From NCBI GenBank assembly GCA_003215895.1, contig QCJR01000007.1, forward strand, positions 1 to 42,350: a DNA stretch of 42,350 nucleotides. Direction: 5' to 3'. The notes beneath the pieces were generated by a model. That model ran no database searches and was not told the DNA's origin. It saw nothing but the letters and a program-made list of their open reading frames with translations. The first letter of the stretch is position 1; every line of letters starts with the position of its first letter. Origin of the DNA: Prochlorococcus sp. AG-409-D14 (GTDB lineage: Bacteria > Cyanobacteriota > Cyanobacteriia > PCC-6307 > Cyanobiaceae). The position numbers and the translations under genes are program-made. Of this stretch, positions 36,601 to 42,350 are shown one piece after another.

Positions 36601-38187
36601 ATGGTTTCAATGAATTCAGAGAAAAAACGTAATCCAGCAATCGTCATTCTCGATTTTGGTTCTCAATACTCAGAATTAATTGCTCGAAGGATTAGAGAGA
36701 CAGAGGTTTACTCATTAGTTATGAGCTATACAACTTCTGCTGACCAATTGCGCTCTCTTCAACCTAAAGGAATTATTTTAAGCGGAGGACCTGGGTCAGT
36801 TTATGAAGAAGGTGCTCCGTACTGTGATCCGGAGATTTTTGAGTTGGGTATTCCTGTACTTGGTGTTTGTTATGGAATGCAATTAATGGTTCATCAGTTA
36901 GGAGGATCTGTCATACCTGCTACTGGAAAATCTGAATATGGTAAAGCTCCGTTAGAAGTTGATGATCCAACAGCTCTATTAACCAATGTGATGAGTGGAT
37001 CTACTATGTGGATGAGTCATGGAGATTCAGTTCAAGAATTACCAAAGGGGTTTATCAGATTAGCTCATACTTCAAATACGTTAGAAGCAGCTATTGCTTT
37101 GCATGAAAAAAGTTTTTATGGAGTGCAATTTCATCCTGAAGTTGTTCATTCTACTCAGGGAATGGTTTTAATAAGAAATTTTGTATATCATATTTGTTCA
37201 TGTGAGCCAGATTGGACAACAACTTCATTCATAGACGAAGCTGTTTCCCAAGTACAACAACAGGTAGGAGACAAAAAAGTTTTATTAGCTCTCTCTGGTG
37301 GTGTTGATTCATCAACTCTTGCATTCTTGTTAAACAAGGCAATAGGTTCTCAATTGACCTGTATGTTTATTGACCAAGGTTTTATGAGAAAAGGTGAGCC
37401 GGAATTTTTAATGTCTTTCTTCGATGAAAAATTCAATATCAATGTCGAATACATTAATGCTAGAGAAAGATTTATTTCACAGTTAAAAGGAGTAATAGAT
37501 CCCGAGCAAAAGCGTAAAATTATAGGTAGGGAATTTATTAGGGTTTTTGAAGAGGAGAGTATTCGTTTAGGCCCTTTTGATTATTTGGCACAAGGGACTC
37601 TTTATCCGGATGTAATAGAAAGTTCCGGAACAAATATTGATCCCAAAACTGGTGAACGAATAGCGGTTAAAATTAAAAGTCATCACAATGTAGGTGGTTT
37701 ACCAAAAGACTTACAATTTAAATTGGTAGAGCCCTTAAGAAGTTTATTTAAAGATGAAGTTAGGAAAGTTGGTAAATCACTGGGATTACCAGATGAGATT
37801 GTTCGAAGACATCCATTCCCAGGTCCAGGATTGGCTATAAGAATTTTAGGAGAAGTTACCAATGAAAAATTGAATTGTCTAAGAGATGCAGACTTGATTG
37901 TGAGAGAGGAAATTAATGATTCTGGCTTGTATAATGAGATCTGGCAGGCTTTCGCTGTCTTGCTCCCGGTATATTCAGTTGGAGTTATGGGAGATCAAAG
38001 AACCTATGCATGGCCTATTGTCGTTCGTTGTGTTTCAAGCGAAGATGGAATGACCGCAGATTGGTCTCGCTTACCGGATGAGGTTTTAGAGAAAATCTCA
38101 AATAGGATAGTTAATGAAGTTGAGGGGGTTAATAGAGTTGTTTTGGATATAACAAGTAAACCACCAGGTACTATTGAGTGGGAGTGA
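36601..38187 (+). CDS. guaA: GMP synthase (glutamine-hydrolysing)
   Basis: Converts XMP to GMP. 528 residues: class I glutaminase domain (about 1-205; catalytic C90 in GVCYGMQL, His in VQFHPEVVH), ATP-PPase domain ([12 protein letters not shown] near 230) and the C-terminal dimerisation domain ending PPGTIEWE. The start is ATG 36601 or 36610. The final 23 bases are repeated at 41348-41370, which marks the gene's 3' end as a likely integration site. The coding sequence is intact. Confidence 0.97.
38165..38187 (+). repeat. Left att-like repeat (guaA 3' end)
   Basis: The last 23 bases of guaA including the TGA. It differs from the right copy only at 38170 (A versus G) and 38184 (G versus A), with 13 consecutive identical bases, CTATTGAGTGGGA (38171-38183). 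Confidence 0.7.
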
Positions 38188-38188
38188 A

Positions 38189-38212
38189 TATAACTACTAA
38201 AAGATAGTTATA
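38189..38212 (+). terminator. Hairpin just after guaA
   Basis: TATAACTA (38189-38196) and TAGTTATA (38205-38212) form a perfect 8-bp stem with an 8-base loop, one base after the guaA stop. There is no T-run, so it may act as an mRNA-stabilising end or as part of the recombination region rather than a strong terminator. Confidence 0.4.
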
Positions 38213-38226
38213 GGTTAAAAGTTGTA

Positions 38227-38307
38227 GTTCCACGTGAGTCAAAAGTAAAAATTGACGAACCTAGTTCCAATGGTTTTGGGAGACGTGTTCCACGTGAGTT
38301 CCACGTG
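38227..38307 (+). repeat. Left arm-type GTTCCACGTG repeats
   Basis: Three copies of GTTCCACGTG, at 38227-38236, 38287-38296 and 38298-38307; the last two are in tandem with an 11-base period, about one helical turn. The tandem pair is identical to the one at 41282-41302. Each contains the palindrome CACGTG. They lie 40-120 bases inside the left att-like repeat. Confidence 0.8.
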
Positions 38308-38437
38308 TCCCCTTGTCACCTTCTCTGTAAAGACATCGTAGAAAGTTTGTTTTCTCTACACTTGTCCTTTATTTCTAAGATTAATTTCCTCAGAATCTAT
38401 TAATGACTTCTCTACGCATTAAAAACTTTGTGATATC

Positions 38438-38513
38438 AAAAAAGCACCTTGCTCACTGGTATTACGCAGGTGCTTGATGAGTTAGGACTGCTTGTGTGAG
38501 GAATGCCCTAGTA
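38438..38513 (-). ncRNA. Candidate small RNA of ~76 nt carrying the Yfr1 core motif
   Basis: Read on the minus strand, a sigma70-type promoter (38519-38547) is followed by about 76 nt. A 5' stem TAGGGC/GTCCTA (6 bp with one G-T) has a 16-base loop that contains TCCTCACAC (complement of 38494-38502). A single-stranded linker leads to a strong terminator: AAGCACC/GGTGCTT plus TGC/GCA with one bulged A (stem ends at 38475 and 38442), followed by a T-run to 38438. TCCTCACAC is the core of the ultraconserved ACTCCTCACAC of the cyanobacterial sRNA Yfr1. In Yfr1 the motif is single-stranded between two hairpins and the gene lies near trxA, so this may be a relative, an analogue or chance. The start site is inferred from the -10. 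Confidence 0.6.
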
Positions 38514-38518
38514 CAGAT

Positions 38519-38547
38519 ATACTAATAATTATTTTTCTTCTCGTCAA
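38519..38547 (-). promoter_or_regulatory. Promoter of the candidate small RNA
   Basis: On the minus strand, -35 TTGACG (complement of 38542-38547), 17 bases, then -10 TAGTAT (complement of 38519-38524). The -35 matches the consensus in 5/6 and the -10 in 4/6 positions, with ideal spacing. It is the best-formed promoter I found in this window. Confidence 0.6.
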
Positions 38548-38614
38548 GTAATTTAGATAAAAATCTTGCAAGATCGATCTAGGTTATATGTATGAATGAT
38601 CGACTTGCGTTCTC

Positions 38615-39376
38615 ATGAATAGTTTTCGGCGACAACTCAATAACCAAATCACTAATCAGAATGAAGAAAGTGGAACGTCGTTATTCAATAAGGTCAGTGG
38701 GATTGCTATCGCGATTTCAATTTTATTAGCGGTGCTTGAGACTGAGAGTCATATTGAAATTCATTTTGGGGAGTTAATCCGAAAAATAGATCTAGTGATT
38801 GGTTTTTTGTTTTGTATTGAATATCTCTGTCGCTTGTGGGTTTCTCCTCTTCAGCATCGTTATGGAAGAGGTTTAAAAGGGGTTATTAGATATATGCTTT
38901 CTCCTTTAGCAGTTATTGATGCTGTAGCAATATTTCCAACATTTATAGGTGCTCTAGGTTCTCAGTTTTACGTTTTAAGAGTTATTCGTCTTTTGAGAAT
39001 TGCAAAAGTAGGACGATCTAAAAGATTTCAACAAAGTGTGTCTCATTTTAATTATGCAATAAGTTCTAAAGGGCGAGAATTGCAGTTAGCAGCGATCTAT
39101 ACGGGACTCTTATTACTTGTGAGTAGTACATTAATGTATTTTGTTGAATCAAAAGTTCAACCTGAATTATTTGGTTCTATCCCTAGATGTATTTGGTGGG
39201 CAATAACTACTGTGACAACAGTTGGATACGGCGATGCTTTCCCAATTAGTGTTTTAGGAAAAGTCCTCGCTTCAATTACCGCACTTCTTGGCATAGGTGT
39301 TGTAGCAGTACCAACAGGTATTCTCGCTGCAGGATTTAGTGAATCTATTTCTAAGGGCAAGATGAATGATAGGTAA
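38615..39376 (+). CDS. Voltage-gated potassium channel (six-helix, VIC family)
   Basis: 253 residues in the inner membrane. Helices S1-S3 lie at about 27-42, 58-75 and 92-112. The voltage sensor S4 is LRVIRLLRIAKVGR, with positive charges every third residue (R122, R125, R128, K131). S5 is at about 157-176, the pore helix with filter TTVGYGD (201-207) follows, and S6 is at about 215-240. All elements of a Kv-type subunit are present, and the filter is potassium-selective. The tails are short with no regulatory domain. The stop directly abuts the stop of the convergent DUF4236 gene. As cargo of a putative island it is unusual. Confidence 0.93.
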   Translation: MNSFRRQLNNQITNQNEESGTSLFNKVSGIAIAISILLAVLETESHIEIHFGELIRKIDLVIGFLFCIEYLCRLWVSPLQHRYGRGLKGVIRYMLSPLAVIDAVAIFPTFIGALGSQFYVLRVIRLLRIAKVGRSKRFQQSVSHFNYAISSKGRELQLAAIYTGLLLLVSSTLMYFVESKVQPELFGSIPRCIWWAITTVTTVGYGDAFPISVLGKVLASITALLGIGVVAVPTGILAAGFSESISKGKMNDR

Positions 39377-40504
39377 TTAAATTAGATCTTTGAAGTTGTT
39401 AATTTTAAGAATGAATGACTTTGCTGAAGAGGCATTGCTAAACATGTATTTCTCATAAACACCTGTTTCTGATGACAGCGTAATTTCTCCATATCCCATC
39501 ACTGGAAGTTGTTTGTTTTCTGAATATCTTTTATCTCTACTTCCATCTTTATTTGATTTCTCCCAGACTGATCTAATGTGTTCTGCATCCTTTGGTGTTA
39601 CTTCAGTTTCTACAAATTCAGTATCTTCATAATTCAATTCAAGTTGACTCATTTCTACAATCCCAAAATTTTCTGGTGATTTATACATAACGACAAAACC
39701 CGGATAGAGATATATATCAGCACCGTTCATATTGGTAAAACAAAGTGCCCTATAGATGGATTTGATACCAGGAATTTCTGTTTGCCTGAGTGATGTTTGC
39801 GTCCTTTCGACTGTTGTAGGGATTGCGGATCTTGTCTTCACCATATCGACATCAGTAGATGAAGTTACATCCCATATGAAATTGCTTTTTCCCAATTCTT
39901 GAAATGCAGGAATCAAGTCCTCATAGGCATTTTTTGCTTCTTCCTTCATATCAAGTTCTAAATCTACAAATGATTCTTGAATACCTTGAGTAACTTCTTT
40001 TGATGCTTGGAGCATTGAAGCAAGGTTCTTATTAACTGTTCTTTTTATCGCTGGGAATATGTAATAGAGAAGAGTTATTTGAGAGAGAAGTTTGAGTAGT
40101 CGAGTTGAAATAATTGAATTTTTGATTTGTGATAAATCACCCTTTAATTGCATCCGTTGTCTATTTGCAGCAATTACTGCTTCTTGAATTGCTTGAAGAC
40201 CTTTCGAGGTTATGTCTAAAGGGTCAGCACTAACAAATTCTTCATCAGGAGTAGAGAAACTCTCTTCATAAGTTTTACCATTAAATGAGTTTTCTTCCTC
40301 GAAAGAAGAAGAATTTTTTTTGCTAATTCTCCGCCTTGAATAAATCCCTGTTCCGGGAATTCCAACGTTTGCATATGTTCCTCCTTTCCCTCCAAGAGTT
40401 ACAGAACCACCTCGCACTCCAACGGAAGCAGTCAATCCACTCTTACTGAGATTTAAGCGAACTCCAGGAATGACCCTTATTCTTCGGCGAAATAACCAAG
40501 ACAC
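39377..40504 (-). CDS. DUF4236 domain protein
   Basis: 375 residues starting at GTG 40502-40504. The first ~55 residues are a clear DUF4236 domain: WLFRRRIRVIPGVRLNLSKSG, then GGSVTLGGKGGTYANVGIPGTGIYSRRR. The middle part is acidic and helical, with a possible membrane-associated segment LLSQITLLYYIFPAI (about 138-152). The C-terminal ~120 residues (DIYLYPGFVVMY, FGIVEMSQLEL, GYGEITLSSETGVYEKYMFSN) look like a beta-rich domain found in other proteins with this module. The function is unknown; DUF4236 proteins are often in accessory regions. Its promoter must lie in 40505-40568. Confidence 0.85.
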   Translation of the reverse strand: MSWLFRRRIRVIPGVRLNLSKSGLTASVGVRGGSVTLGGKGGTYANVGIPGTGIYSRRRISKKNSSSFEEENSFNGKTYEESFSTPDEEFVSADPLDITSKGLQAIQEAVIAANRQRMQLKGDLSQIKNSIISTRLLKLLSQITLLYYIFPAIKRTVNKNLASMLQASKEVTQGIQESFVDLELDMKEEAKNAYEDLIPAFQELGKSNFIWDVTSSTDVDMVKTRSAIPTTVERTQTSLRQTEIPGIKSIYRALCFTNMNGADIYLYPGFVVMYKSPENFGIVEMSQLELNYEDTEFVETEVTPKDAEHIRSVWEKSNKDGSRDKRYSENKQLPVMGYGEITLSSETGVYEKYMFSNASSAKSFILKINNFKDLI

Positions 40505-40568
40505 ATTCTTCTGGGGTATTTGTCTCTAAGGTTAGATAACTATGTTCAACTAAGCATTACAGAAGAAA

Positions 40569-40739
40569 TTGACATTCATATCAAATAACGGAAAACCCTT
40601 TAGCAAAGAGGAAGCAATAGATTTAATGGTGTCATTGAGTGCAACTGACGCTAATTCAGAAAAGAAGTGGAGAGGTTTCTATAACTCTTTATCTCAGACA
40701 GAATTGCAGGATGAGTGGGATGAGTATTGGAAACCTTAA
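40569..40739 (+). CDS. 56-residue acidic protein
   Basis: An in-frame TTG at 40569 starts a 56-codon frame ending TAA 40737-40739. An upstream TAA at 40551-40553 limits extension and no ATG is available earlier; an internal ATG at 40626 would give only 37 residues. The product (MTFISNNGKPFSKEEAIDLM at the start, ELQDEWDEYWKP at the end) is helical, with a tryptophan/aspartate-rich tail. A strong terminator 15 bases after the stop supports expression. I do not recognise the family. Confidence 0.6.
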   Translation: MTFISNNGKPFSKEEAIDLMVSLSATDANSEKKWRGFYNSLSQTELQDEWDEYWKP

Positions 40740-40754
40740 TTCCTTCCATTAAAG

Positions 40755-40783
40755 AAGGGGGCAAGATTTTGGTTGCCCCCTTT
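40755..40783 (+). terminator. Strong, nearly symmetrical terminator
   Basis: AAGGGGGCAA (40755-40764) pairs perfectly with TTGCCCCCTT (40773-40782) around an 8-base loop, followed by a T. It ends the 56-residue gene. On the minus strand it is followed by TCTTT and might also work. Confidence 0.8.
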
Positions 40784-40789
40784 AAGTTC

Positions 40790-40882
40790 AGCACTTGTTT
40801 ATCCGTGTGAACAATCCATTTTCTTTACTAACCACTTCCCTGACCTACGGGAAGACAAGTGCTAGAACTCCAACCCAGTTCT
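40790..40882. other. Nested hairpin block in a 252-base gene-free stretch
   Basis: Between the 56-residue and 75-residue genes (40740-40991) the DNA is rich in inverted repeats. An outer AGCACTTGT/ACAAGTGCT pair (40790-40798 with 40855-40863, 9 bp perfect) encloses CTTCCC/GGGAAG (40835-40840 with 40849-40854), which directly abuts the outer arm. AGAACT/AGTTCT (40864-40869 with 40877-40882) follows immediately. A weaker minus-strand terminator-like ACACC/GGTGT with six T lies at 40910-40934. This could be a structured RNA, a recombination or replication site, or a regulatory leader of the next gene. No known RNA family is recognised. Confidence 0.5.
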
Positions 40883-40991
40883 AATCAAACCTCACGATCA
40901 GAACATGAGAAAAAACACCTGTTCTCATTGGTGTAATGGTTCATCAGACCAAAGTGAGTTAAAACAATAATGAGCAAGTAGTTAATTGAAA

Positions 40992-41219
40992 ATGGATAAT
41001 AAAGAATATGATTGGATTTTTGTTTATAAGATTCGTGATTCAGGTGACGTGATTTATAAAGTCACTATTCCATCAGAACGAAAAGAAGATGCAGTTGAAA
41101 TATTTAAGAGAGAACATCCAGATGGATTGATCTGTAGTGGCATCAGGAGAGGCGATTTTAAATTGATACCATTCAAGGAACTTCCTTCACATGATCCTTG
41201 GGAAGAGATTGCTTCGTAA
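40992..41219 (+). CDS. 75-residue hypothetical protein
   Basis: Starts at ATG 40992; a TTG six bases earlier is in frame. The sequence (DNKEYDWIFVYKIRDSGDVI, then YKVTIPSERKEDAVEIFKREHPDG, SHDPWEEIAS) predicts a small alpha-beta fold of two or three strands and a helix. No motif is recognised. It is the last gene before the right arm repeats and att-like repeat of the putative island. Confidence 0.6.
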   Translation: MDNKEYDWIFVYKIRDSGDVIYKVTIPSERKEDAVEIFKREHPDGLICSGIRRGDFKLIPFKELPSHDPWEEIAS

Positions 41220-41281
41220 GTGTATAAAAAAGCAAAATATTTTGTACACCTTCTCAAATACCAAATATTTGTTTAAAACAA

Positions 41282-41302
41282 GTTCCACGTGAGTTCCACG
41301 TG
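41282..41302 (+). repeat. Right arm-type GTTCCACGTG repeats
   Basis: Tandem copies at 41282-41291 and 41293-41302, identical over 21 bases to 38287-38307 and in the same orientation. They end 45 bases before the right att-like repeat. Confidence 0.8.
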
Positions 41303-41347
41303 GTAAATTAGGGGGGCAAATCCCTGTCCACCACTCAGTTTTTTCCA

Positions 41348-41370
41348 CAGGTGCTATTGAGTGGGAATGA
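41348..41370 (+). repeat. Right att-like repeat (copy of the guaA 3' end)
   Basis: Matches 38165-38187 in 21 of 23 positions in the same orientation. Read in the guaA frame it encodes TGAIEWE and a stop, against PGTIEWE in guaA; this is what an integrating element would carry to restore the gene end. It has no gene around it here. Confidence 0.68.
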
Positions 41371-41419: not shown

Positions 41420-42350
41420 TTATATTTTTTTTTGTACCATTGTTATACTTCCTTGCCTTTTTTTGTGGGGTTCAACTATGTCAAGCATAACGTGATGTCC
41501 TTTGATAAGATCTCGAATGGTTTTATGGAGAATATTTGGCTTCCCGTCTGAGTAAGTAAAATGAAAGAATACATAATTTGAACAATAATCCCAGTATTCT
41601 TTGATAAAGTTTATATATTCTTTCTGTCCTCCACAGTCAAACCAAACGAAATCAAAATGACCATATTTTTTAAATAATTCTTCTCCCTTCTCTTCAAAAT
41701 TTCCTTCGATAAAATCGGTATATTCAGAATTTATTATCTCTTCCATACCTTCAACTGTTGATAATTCACCTAAAGATTGATTATCTATAATAATTAATTT
41801 TGGATCATAAATATAGTTTTTGAAATAAGACTCACTGAGATTTCCATCATCAAATACTCTTTCATTATTTATCAATGCTTCAACTAAAAAAGGAGTTGTA
41901 TAACCTGCGCCAATTTCCAATATTCTCTTTGGTCTTAACATCATTACCATAGATCTAAGAAAAGCTCCCACATTTTCTGTACCCATGCCTGGTCTATACA
42001 AAGTCGAATATTCAATTGGACTCGGCCTTTTTAATAATTTATTTTGCTCCTTTCTTTCAGATTCAAAGTTTGAGTTAATACTATTTTTTAAATGTAAGAC
42101 TTTTTTAGAACTTTCTTCTGCTTCTTCTTTTCGATCTAACTTTTTCAGTATCGAAGCAAGAGCATTGTGTGCTTGAATAAATCCAAATTTTAATTTTATG
42201 GCTTCTTTGAAACTAATTTCTGCCTTCTCTAATGTTTCATTATTTGCCTGTATTTGACCAAGAATGTAATAAGCCTGTGCGAAGTCAGGTTTTAGTTCAA
42301 TTGCTTTGCGAGTAGATAATTCTGCGTCCTGTAATTTGCCAAGATTTCTC
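41420..42350 (-). CDS. TPR-methyltransferase fusion protein, 5' part missing
   Basis: The frame is open from the window end to a stop at 41420-41422, so at least 310 residues are present and the start lies beyond 42350. A TTG at 41999-42001 could be taken for a start but is internal. The visible N-terminal part has about two to three tetratricopeptide repeats (AIELKPDFAQAYYILGQIQA, AIKLKFGFIQAHNALASIL). The C-terminal ~190 residues look like a class I SAM-dependent methyltransferase: RILEIGAGYTTPFLVEAL (motif I), then LIIIDNQS and FDFVWFDCGGQKEY. The substrate is unknown; such fusions are frequent in cyanobacterial islands concerned with surface polysaccharides. Just outside the putative guaA island. 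Confidence 0.8.
   Translation of the reverse strand, partial: RNLGKLQDAELSTRKAIELKPDFAQAYYILGQIQANNETLEKAEISFKEAIKLKFGFIQAHNALASILKKLDRKEEAEESSKKVLHLKNSINSNFESERKEQNKLLKRPSPIEYSTLYRPGMGTENVGAFLRSMVMMLRPKRILEIGAGYTTPFLVEALINNERVFDDGNLSESYFKNYIYDPKLIIIDNQSLGELSTVEGMEEIINSEYTDFIEGNFEEKGEELFKKYGHFDFVWFDCGGQKEYINFIKEYWDYCSNYVFFHFTYSDGKPNILHKTIRDLIKGHHVMLDIVEPHKKRQGSITMVQKKI

Follow-up and report, generated by a model that had tools for sequence, protein, structure and literature searches.

A candidate non-autonomous integrative element at the guaA 3' end of a Prochlorococcus genome, and rows of related cassettes behind guaA in its family

Genomic islands hold much of the difference between Prochlorococcus strains. 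To our knowledge, how genes enter these islands is an open question apart from the tRNA-linked tycheposons, which Hackl et al. reportedly presented in 2023 as picocyanobacterial integrative elements of Prochlorococcus with a tyrosine recombinase and varied cargo. Passages on these known mobile elements of Prochlorococcus describe them as tRNA-linked (PMC10872708). The nearest concept to the locus studied here is that of cis-mobilizable elements (CIMEs) and of the tandem accretion of integrative and conjugative or integrative and mobilizable elements (ICE/IME) at the 3' end of a gene, as set out in a section of PMC5704250; in a table of the same paper guaA is given as the insertion target of further elements, among them GIsul2, ATE-1 and the Brucella IncP island. 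Here we analyse the guaA 3' end in a stretch of 42,350 nucleotides from Prochlorococcus sp. AG-409-D14 (contig QCJR01000007.1), the whole of which is called the window. Judged from its sequence and that of its relatives, the segment 38171-41366 probably belongs, as a non-autonomous integrative element, to a family specific for guaA, and it would be mobilised by the tyrosine integrase of those relatives acting in trans. The observations on which this draws are its anatomy, its recurrence, empty sites, integrase-bearing relatives, integrase relics and near-identical cassettes in different species. Numbers with G, C and L are our handles for genomes, contigs and loci.

The window element and its borders

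The final 23 nt of guaA including the stop codon (38165-38187) recur at 41348-41370 with 21/23 identity and a spacing of 3,183 bp. Between the two repeats, GTTCCACGTG stands on the + strand at 38227, 38287, 38298, 41282 and 41293, and 38287-38307 and 41282-41302 are two identical copies of the 21-mer GTTCCACGTGAGTTCCACGTG. An earlier note on this DNA had described exactly these features, that is, a guaA-end direct repeat of 21/23 about 3.18 kb apart and five copies of GTTCCACGTG just inside both ends, three on the left and two on the right with an identical 21-base tandem. A degenerate second unit follows the first left repeat (38227), so that the left end is built of a half pair and a full pair and the right end of a full pair. 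When up to one mismatch is allowed, GTTCCACGTG has 7 matches in the whole window against 0.64 expected, and 0 of 100 shuffles reach 7. A similar density throughout the genome had been named in the earlier note as a finding that would speak against an element; in the genome assembly (959,905 bp, 55% complete) the only exact copies are the five inside the element, and the reversed control pattern has 1 match.

The element was also said to contain no integrase gene, and indeed neither the ORF (open reading frame) list nor Pfam finds one between 38188 and 41347. By Pfam no integration or transfer genes are present among its four ORFs, conjugation genes not having been searched for specifically. 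The proposed check for a tyrosine recombinase associated with GTTCCACGTG in the same genome came out empty, as no PF00589 gene was found in the 55% complete assembly of 959,905 bp. The target gene itself is widespread, with near full-length homologues of guaA in 36 of the 41 genomes of the genus (own genome counted). The features of the locus are as follows; aa stands for amino acids and att for attachment site.

36601..38187, + strand: guaA (GMP synthase), the target gene, a 528-aa ORF whose last 23 nt are the left att repeat
38165..38187, + strand: left att repeat at the guaA 3' end; it includes the 13-bp core CTATTGAGTGGGA (38171-38183), after which come the final base of the Glu codon and the stop
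38206..38216, + strand: dyad-like motif AGTTATAGGTT, a possible accessory site, at +35 from the core start
38227..38236, + strand: first left arm site GTTCCACGTG, at +56 from the core start, the second unit of the pair being degenerate
38287..38307, + strand: second left arm pair, made of two GTTCCACGTG units at +116 and +127 (spacing 11 bp; class position +110 to +119)
38310..38359, + strand: conserved left-end block (CCCTTGTCACCTTCTCTGTAAAGACATCG...TTTTCTCTAC), which precedes the integrase gene in autonomous relatives
38615..39376, + strand: cargo, ion (K+-type) channel protein of 253 aa (PF00520, E 1.9e-22; PF07885)
39377..40504, - strand: cargo, 375-aa protein with a DUF4236 N-terminus (PF14020, E 5e-20)
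40569..40739, + strand: cargo, 56-aa ORF with homologues in other guaA cassettes
40986..41219, + strand: cargo, 77-aa ORF, 92-96% identity in 5 other cassettes of 161
41282..41302, + strand: right arm pair, two GTTCCACGTG units 11 bp apart, at -72 and -61 from the right core
41348..41370, + strand: right att repeat, core CTATTGAGTGGGA at 41354-41366, then TGA in the phase of guaA
41371..42350, no strand assigned: beginning of the following unit, which the contig end truncates; no arm pair is seen behind its core
41420-42349, - strand: TPR (tetratricopeptide repeat)-methyltransferase-like gene of the next unit; TPR families by Pfam, the methyltransferase part having no Pfam hit and being read from similarity to other cargo

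A stretch ending in CCACCA was considered as a tRNA or tmRNA remnant at the right end, and was discarded after ARAGORN and Rfam found none.

Cassette rows and integrases behind guaA

The reading of a non-autonomous element at guaA, already put forward in the earlier note, holds and grows; what that note had missed is that the element belongs as a single unit to rows that reach up to 12. We surveyed 241 genomes of the family for the 13-bp core CTATTGAGTGGGA, which encodes the end of GuaA, with its reversed sequence as control. Exact cores number 124 (guaA's own copies counted) against 3 for the control, and they occur in 59 of the 241 genomes, 24 of which have two or more. Of the 26 exact cores in the six single-contig genomes G002-G007, 25 are located downstream of guaA and have the same orientation. 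The stretches behind guaA read as units bordered by the core, with cassettes of median 2.5 kb, and the window genome has a second contig (C10) built of such core-bounded units. In the counts that follow, cores were accepted with up to 1 or 2 mismatches in stretches fetched because they contain cores, hence the rates per cassette describe these stretches only. Nine chance-like core places (among them an exact core of G071 that is not located at guaA) were removed by hand before the counts of arm matching, cassette pairs, stop codons, arm positions and dyad motifs, and four in an earlier reading of the units. Cassette totals are 141 for arm matching and 161 for cassette pairs, stretches having been added in between.

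Empty sites with a single core were found in G142 and G200, from other genera of the family, where guaA lies 89 and 103 bp from a native gene of 203 aa. Across the 26 stretches with both genes, the two stand between 89 bp and 50,039 bp apart, and there are 1 to 13 cores, in rows of up to 12 units. The earlier note had called for a search for empty sites in relatives, and the one-core sites, together with an interval of 0.1 to 50 kb, indicate that relatives do not carry uniform content here. In G225 and G049, which have autonomous elements, 85 and 89 bp separate the start of the right repeat from that of the native gene. A stop codon directly follows GGGAR at 192 of 208 cores, thus each left end can close guaA, including those ends that now lie inside a row. 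The division of this count into guaA-adjacent (56/57 with stop) and internal cores (136/151) relies on a loose motif that places at least 3 internal cores (G000 C10, G006, G153 C31) in the guaA group.

The arm repeats recur as well. The arm tandem TTCCACGTGNNTTCCACGTG is present in 16 of the 41 genomes of the genus, and its reversed control in 0. Near-perfect tandem repeats of period 11 were found at 66 of 178 right ends and 44 of 177 left ends, as compared with 27 and 34 of 2,440 random places, which were drawn from the same stretches and so include some arms. Periods 9, 10, 12, 13 and 14 gave none, and period 8 gave 0 right ends and 12/177 left ends. Left arm pairs were detected at 83 of 210 cores; 53 begin within +50 to +59 and most others at +110 to +119. 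Right arm pairs, also at 83/210, lie mostly at -75 to -71 or -90 to -81. The class thus has arms spaced 11 bp at about +55, +115 and -75/-90, and the window element, with +56, +116/+127 and -72/-61, fits. In sequence the arm repeats vary (GTTCCACGTGA, GTTCCCCGTAT, CTTCACCGTGA, CTTCCACACCA, GTTTGTCACGG, GTTTCACGTAG, GTTTTGTGTGG, GTTTCCCATAC and others; the classes were named by eye). Within a cassette, left and right arms match at 8.62/10 for the best 10-mer (122 cassettes >300 bp), against a permuted mean of 7.70 (sd 0.09, max 7.97, 200 permutations). Since arm sequence differs between cassettes and matches within them, several arm classes share one core.

Two further observations concern the ends. 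Of 210 left ends, 102 have a dyad-like motif, [AT]GT[CT]ATAG[AT][CT]T with up to 2 mismatches, in the interval +30 to +39, and 24 of 151 right ends have it in inverted form near -40. The motif occurs anywhere in 326 of 2,280 random 62-mers, and maybe it is a site for an excisionase or a bending protein. Moreover, 19 of 141 units measure 100-212 bp and have no room for cargo (G005 4146, G006 40494, G008 C26 3279, G010 C47, G036 and others), several of them consisting of core, left end and right end only. Many of these units look like cassettes that may have lost their cargo between the arm repeats.

Tyrosine integrases at the same place were found in relatives. In G051 (Prochlorococcus sp. AG-409-O23), an 8.8-kb unit at guaA opens, directly after the left arms, with a tyrosine integrase of 462 aa. 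The family of this integrase is present in 16 of 400 family genomes (E <= 1e-25), with some copies broken or distant. Intact close relatives are those of G225, G049, G284, G293, G289, G331 and G312; with the named loci AG-347-G20, AG-402-M15 and Synechococcus AG-679-A04, the last two of which correspond to G312 and G331, there are nine distinct intact integrases. In all nine, arm repeats lie between guaA and the integrase match, which begins 194-353 bp downstream of guaA, or about 1 kb downstream in AG-347-G20; the right core was found for 6 of the nine. G117 offers a tenth context, with a broken gene and no clear arms. The lambda-type anatomy of core and arm sites that the earlier note had proposed is borne out by arms recurring at fixed distances in many cassettes and by this tyrosine integrase family, which has the same anatomy at the same place. 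PF00589 scored over its cut-off in the 3 integrases tested, and a profile search of the PDB with three integrases gave Int proteins as best matches (6en0, 6emy; E about 1e-6). Residues R278, K319, L389-R-H391 and Y422 are invariant in alignments of three and four integrases; we take them to be the catalytic residues of a tyrosine recombinase, with L389-R-H391 as the (H/Y)xLRH motif.

The integrase N-terminal region may be what binds the arm sites. For eight integrases (nine compared, the near-identical G284 dropped, arm units picked by eye), arm similarity follows the identity of residues 10-95 (Mantel rho 0.80, p 0.005), as against rho 0.19, p 0.21 for the catalytic domain, and the N-terminal correlation stays at rho 0.69, p 0.008 after removal of the catalytic-domain part. 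A model of the N-terminal region predicts four strands and a helix (pLDDT, predicted local distance difference test, 79). A first model of the whole integrase from 4 sequences was poor (pLDDT 47) and was not used. Which integrase would serve the GTTCCACGTG class is something that we infer; the arms nearest to the window repeat are those of G293 (GTTTCACGTG, one base off) and G289 (GTTTCACGTA, two bases off).

A further candidate for the trans-acting enzyme was a 386-aa tyrosine recombinase encoded at L045:5066-6226 (- strand), with a cobO-like gene on one side and a hemH-like gene on the other; it was set aside once the guaA integrases had been found. It has matches at E <= 0.001 in 231 of 241 family genomes, a few of them weak, and as it also occurs in many genomes without repeated cores, its spread says nothing in favour of a role in trans; it is possibly a chromosome-dimer resolvase. 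A phage carrier is not supported by searches of phage, plasmid and IMG/VR records made with one integrase and one TPR protein. The integrase has one weak match among phage records (E 6e-6, 21.6%), one among plasmids (E 3e-6, 23.4%) and no relative in IMG/VR, the TPR cargo protein has three weak phage matches, and the DNA of the element has no match among phage records. Two IMG/VR contigs with the arm tandem were rejected, having no exact or near core alongside and looking like unrelated phage DNA.

The cargo is varied and often consists of one large gene. In a first set of 64 ORFs of at least 150 aa, which leaves out two window ORFs and two that span locus borders, 50 have TPRs; a sulfotransferase domain is present in 15 and a methyltransferase domain in 8 or 9. 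The longest ORF opposes the direction of guaA in 90 of 113 cassettes >1 kb. As for the window cargo, homologues of the channel protein occur in 9 of 161 cassettes (own counted), of the DUF4236 protein in 2, of the 56-aa ORF in 13 and of the 77-aa ORF in 6; the TPR gene of the next unit has homologues, largely through its TPRs, in 76 of 161. Two Microcystis phage records also contain a near full-length homologue of the DUF4236 protein (window 39377-40504), with 34.8% identity. The TPR proteins form a large family with a common N-terminus (about ..KTFxVPF..ENxTIxTN..SKEQIINQAFxFHSQGNIxEA..), are often the sole large gene of a cassette, and end in exchangeable C-terminal enzymes: sulfotransferase, methyltransferase, FkbM or 2-oxoglutarate (2OG)-Fe(II) oxygenase. 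Restriction-modification cargo comprises a type III pair in G172 and, in G003, a type I methyltransferase with a helicase-like protein of 1,272 aa.

L038:676-2223 (- strand), L027:2200-4722 (- strand), L041:8786-10003 (+ strand): TPR-family examples in guaA arrays
L078:8697-13462; L025:2165-8696: restriction-modification cargo

How the cassettes may move

A mechanism can be proposed in which a tyrosine integrase, encoded by autonomous relatives at the same place and not by the window element, would recombine the 13-bp core at the guaA 3' end, or behind guaA, with the core of a circular element. Its N-terminal region would read the 11-bp-spaced arm sites inside both ends while the catalytic part would read the core. 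The left end would restore the last codon of guaA and its stop, leaving guaA intact, and each insertion would leave a new core, so that units could pile up into rows of cassettes. Mobilisation of the window unit in trans, with its excision and insertion, would follow this scheme. On a larger scale, we give about even chances to a picocyanobacterial cassette-exchange platform at guaA, integron-like in its working and with lambda-type sites, in which one core is shared and about eight arm classes serve as addresses. Integrases would reside in a few autonomous units, and many integrase-less units would be moved in trans by an integrase whose N-terminus matches their address. These integrase-less units often hold a single large gene, such as one for a TPR protein with an exchangeable sulfotransferase, methyltransferase or oxygenase end, and their cargo also includes restriction systems and channels.

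Several observations weigh against the proposed mechanism. The integrase family is found in only 16 of 400 family genomes, which means that most array genomes are seen without a helper at present, and no intact integrase flanked by exact GTTCCACGTG arms was found in these 400 genomes or the named loci. No right core was found by the core pattern in the available sequence for G284, G293 and AG-679-A04, the last being cut by its locus. A strict threshold gives a left pair, and likewise a right pair, at only 83 of 210 cores, and G201, G222 and G117 have a single core and yet 871, 3,003 and 4,131 bp before the native gene. A fold search with the N-terminal model gave no clear match, with no arm domain of lambda Int or Tn916 Int among the matches listed. 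To these must be added an integrase relic whose arms differ from those of its intact counterpart, and the pattern of identity between cassettes, both described below.

The most serious alternative, to which we give a smaller though real probability, is that autonomous guaA elements were inserted serially and decayed in place like CIMEs, with cassettes moving only together with a neighbour. Of 160 integrase-less cassettes, 5 retain an integrase start immediately after the left arms; the window element is not among these five. In the relic of G027, residues 1-83 are retained at 96% identity and are followed by a TPR gene; the counterpart is the start of the G051 integrase, yet the arms differ. 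Other relics are found in G006 (N-terminal, deeper in the cassette) and in the open last unit of G019. These relics, the broken integrases of G006, G117 and G251, the few genomes with an intact integrase and the existence of the CIME concept (section in PMC5704250) all favour decay in place. Such decay would not lead one to expect that many integrase-less cassettes have kept arm pairs at constant positions in their left and right ends, that stop codons persist at internal left ends, or that there are near-identical cassettes in different species and array positions. Of the latter, cassette 3 of G006 and cassette 1 of G033 share 96.4% identity over 3.8 kb (guaA 85.8%), and cassette 2 of G016 and cassette 2 of G034 share 96.2% (guaA 82.4%).

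A second alternative, homologous recombination, we regard as unlikely to account for the rows: the repeated ends and guaA would supply the homology, and bodies would spread inside existing ends. Among 78 near full-length pairs between genomes, 33 have a known guaA identity, and in only 4 of these is the cassette more alike than guaA; the other 29 of 33 are not, which speaks for exchange by homology. Furthermore, in 6 of 6 similar pairs compared, the outermost 100 bp on at least one side are less alike than the body, from which it follows that ends have been exchanged, probably by homologous recombination acting as a second process. An end swap can be seen between the units G016 4505 and G034 4284, with bodies 96% identical and the left end, from core to arms, replaced with a breakpoint at the arm repeats. 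Against homologous exchange as the mover, a core of 13 bp is short for it; identity stops at the right core in G016/G034 and begins at the core in G006/G033, where the upstream neighbour differs; and the fixed arm geometry and the integrases at guaA would be left unexplained. Decay in place and homologous recombination probably both contribute. Lastly, that the repeats are regulatory sites, such as operators, of genes downstream of guaA rather than recombinase arms is highly improbable, for GTTCCACGTG does hold a CACGTG palindrome but the repeats keep their distance to cores and not to genes, and their sequence varies between cassettes at constant spacing, with a similarity that tracks the integrase N-terminus.

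If arms do act as addresses for movement in trans, exchanging GTTTCACGTG arms for GTTCCACGTG or CTACCCCGTG would alter the recombination rate. A natural series of integrases that share one core and differ in their arms offers a way to study how arm sites are told apart. Island turnover would become directly testable in cultured strains through a second route that is tied to a protein gene, has an integrase family to itself and shows empty sites, legible unit borders and an address code that changes. Additionally, part of the cargo looks fit for surface change or phage defence, which may tie the platform to phage pressure.

Comparison with known systems

A full-text literature search, whose coverage left out most subscription papers, gave by title or abstract start no report on guaA arrays of Prochlorococcus or Synechococcus; guaA did turn up there as an insertion target in other bacteria. 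Like tycheposons, the guaA elements are picocyanobacterial and have a tyrosine recombinase and varied cargo; they differ in their target, the protein gene guaA and not a tRNA. No tRNA was found in the window or the array stretches scanned. GIsul2, ATE-1 and the Brucella IncP island share with them a tyrosine integrase and the guaA 3' end, and differ in being single elements with their own integrase, as the table entries describe them (PMC5704250).

The likeness to CIMEs, as far as the section in PMC5704250 describes them, lies in att sites at both ends, the absence of a recombinase gene and pile-up at a gene end where relatives encode the recombinase. The guaA rows differ in that many units have arms at either end, a row can hold as many as 12 units, cassettes with one gene are frequent, and several arm classes go with a single core. 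With four ORFs free of integration or transfer genes by Pfam and att at both ends, the window element agrees with the CIME description given there; as for derivation from an ICE/IME by loss, integrase relics are present in 5 of 160 integrase-less cassettes and in the window element there is none.

What the guaA arrays have in common with integron cassette arrays is that small units, many of them with a single large gene, are lined up behind a fixed place. The core motif of integron attC and attI sites is GTTRRRY, and the guaA core, read as CTATTGAGTGGGA(R)T, has no GTT and so departs from it. As regards an IntI-type integrase beside the array, no PF00589 match lies in the guaA interval of G002-G007, where G006 has an N-terminal relic. 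The guaA arrays differ from integrons, then, in their double-sided arm sites, in a core without GTTRRRY and in an integrase that travels in some of the units. In the guaA integrase element family as defined here, the window element has its place through the core CTATTGAGTGGGA at the guaA end and at the far end and, being without an integrase gene of its own, it is filed as a non-autonomous member only.

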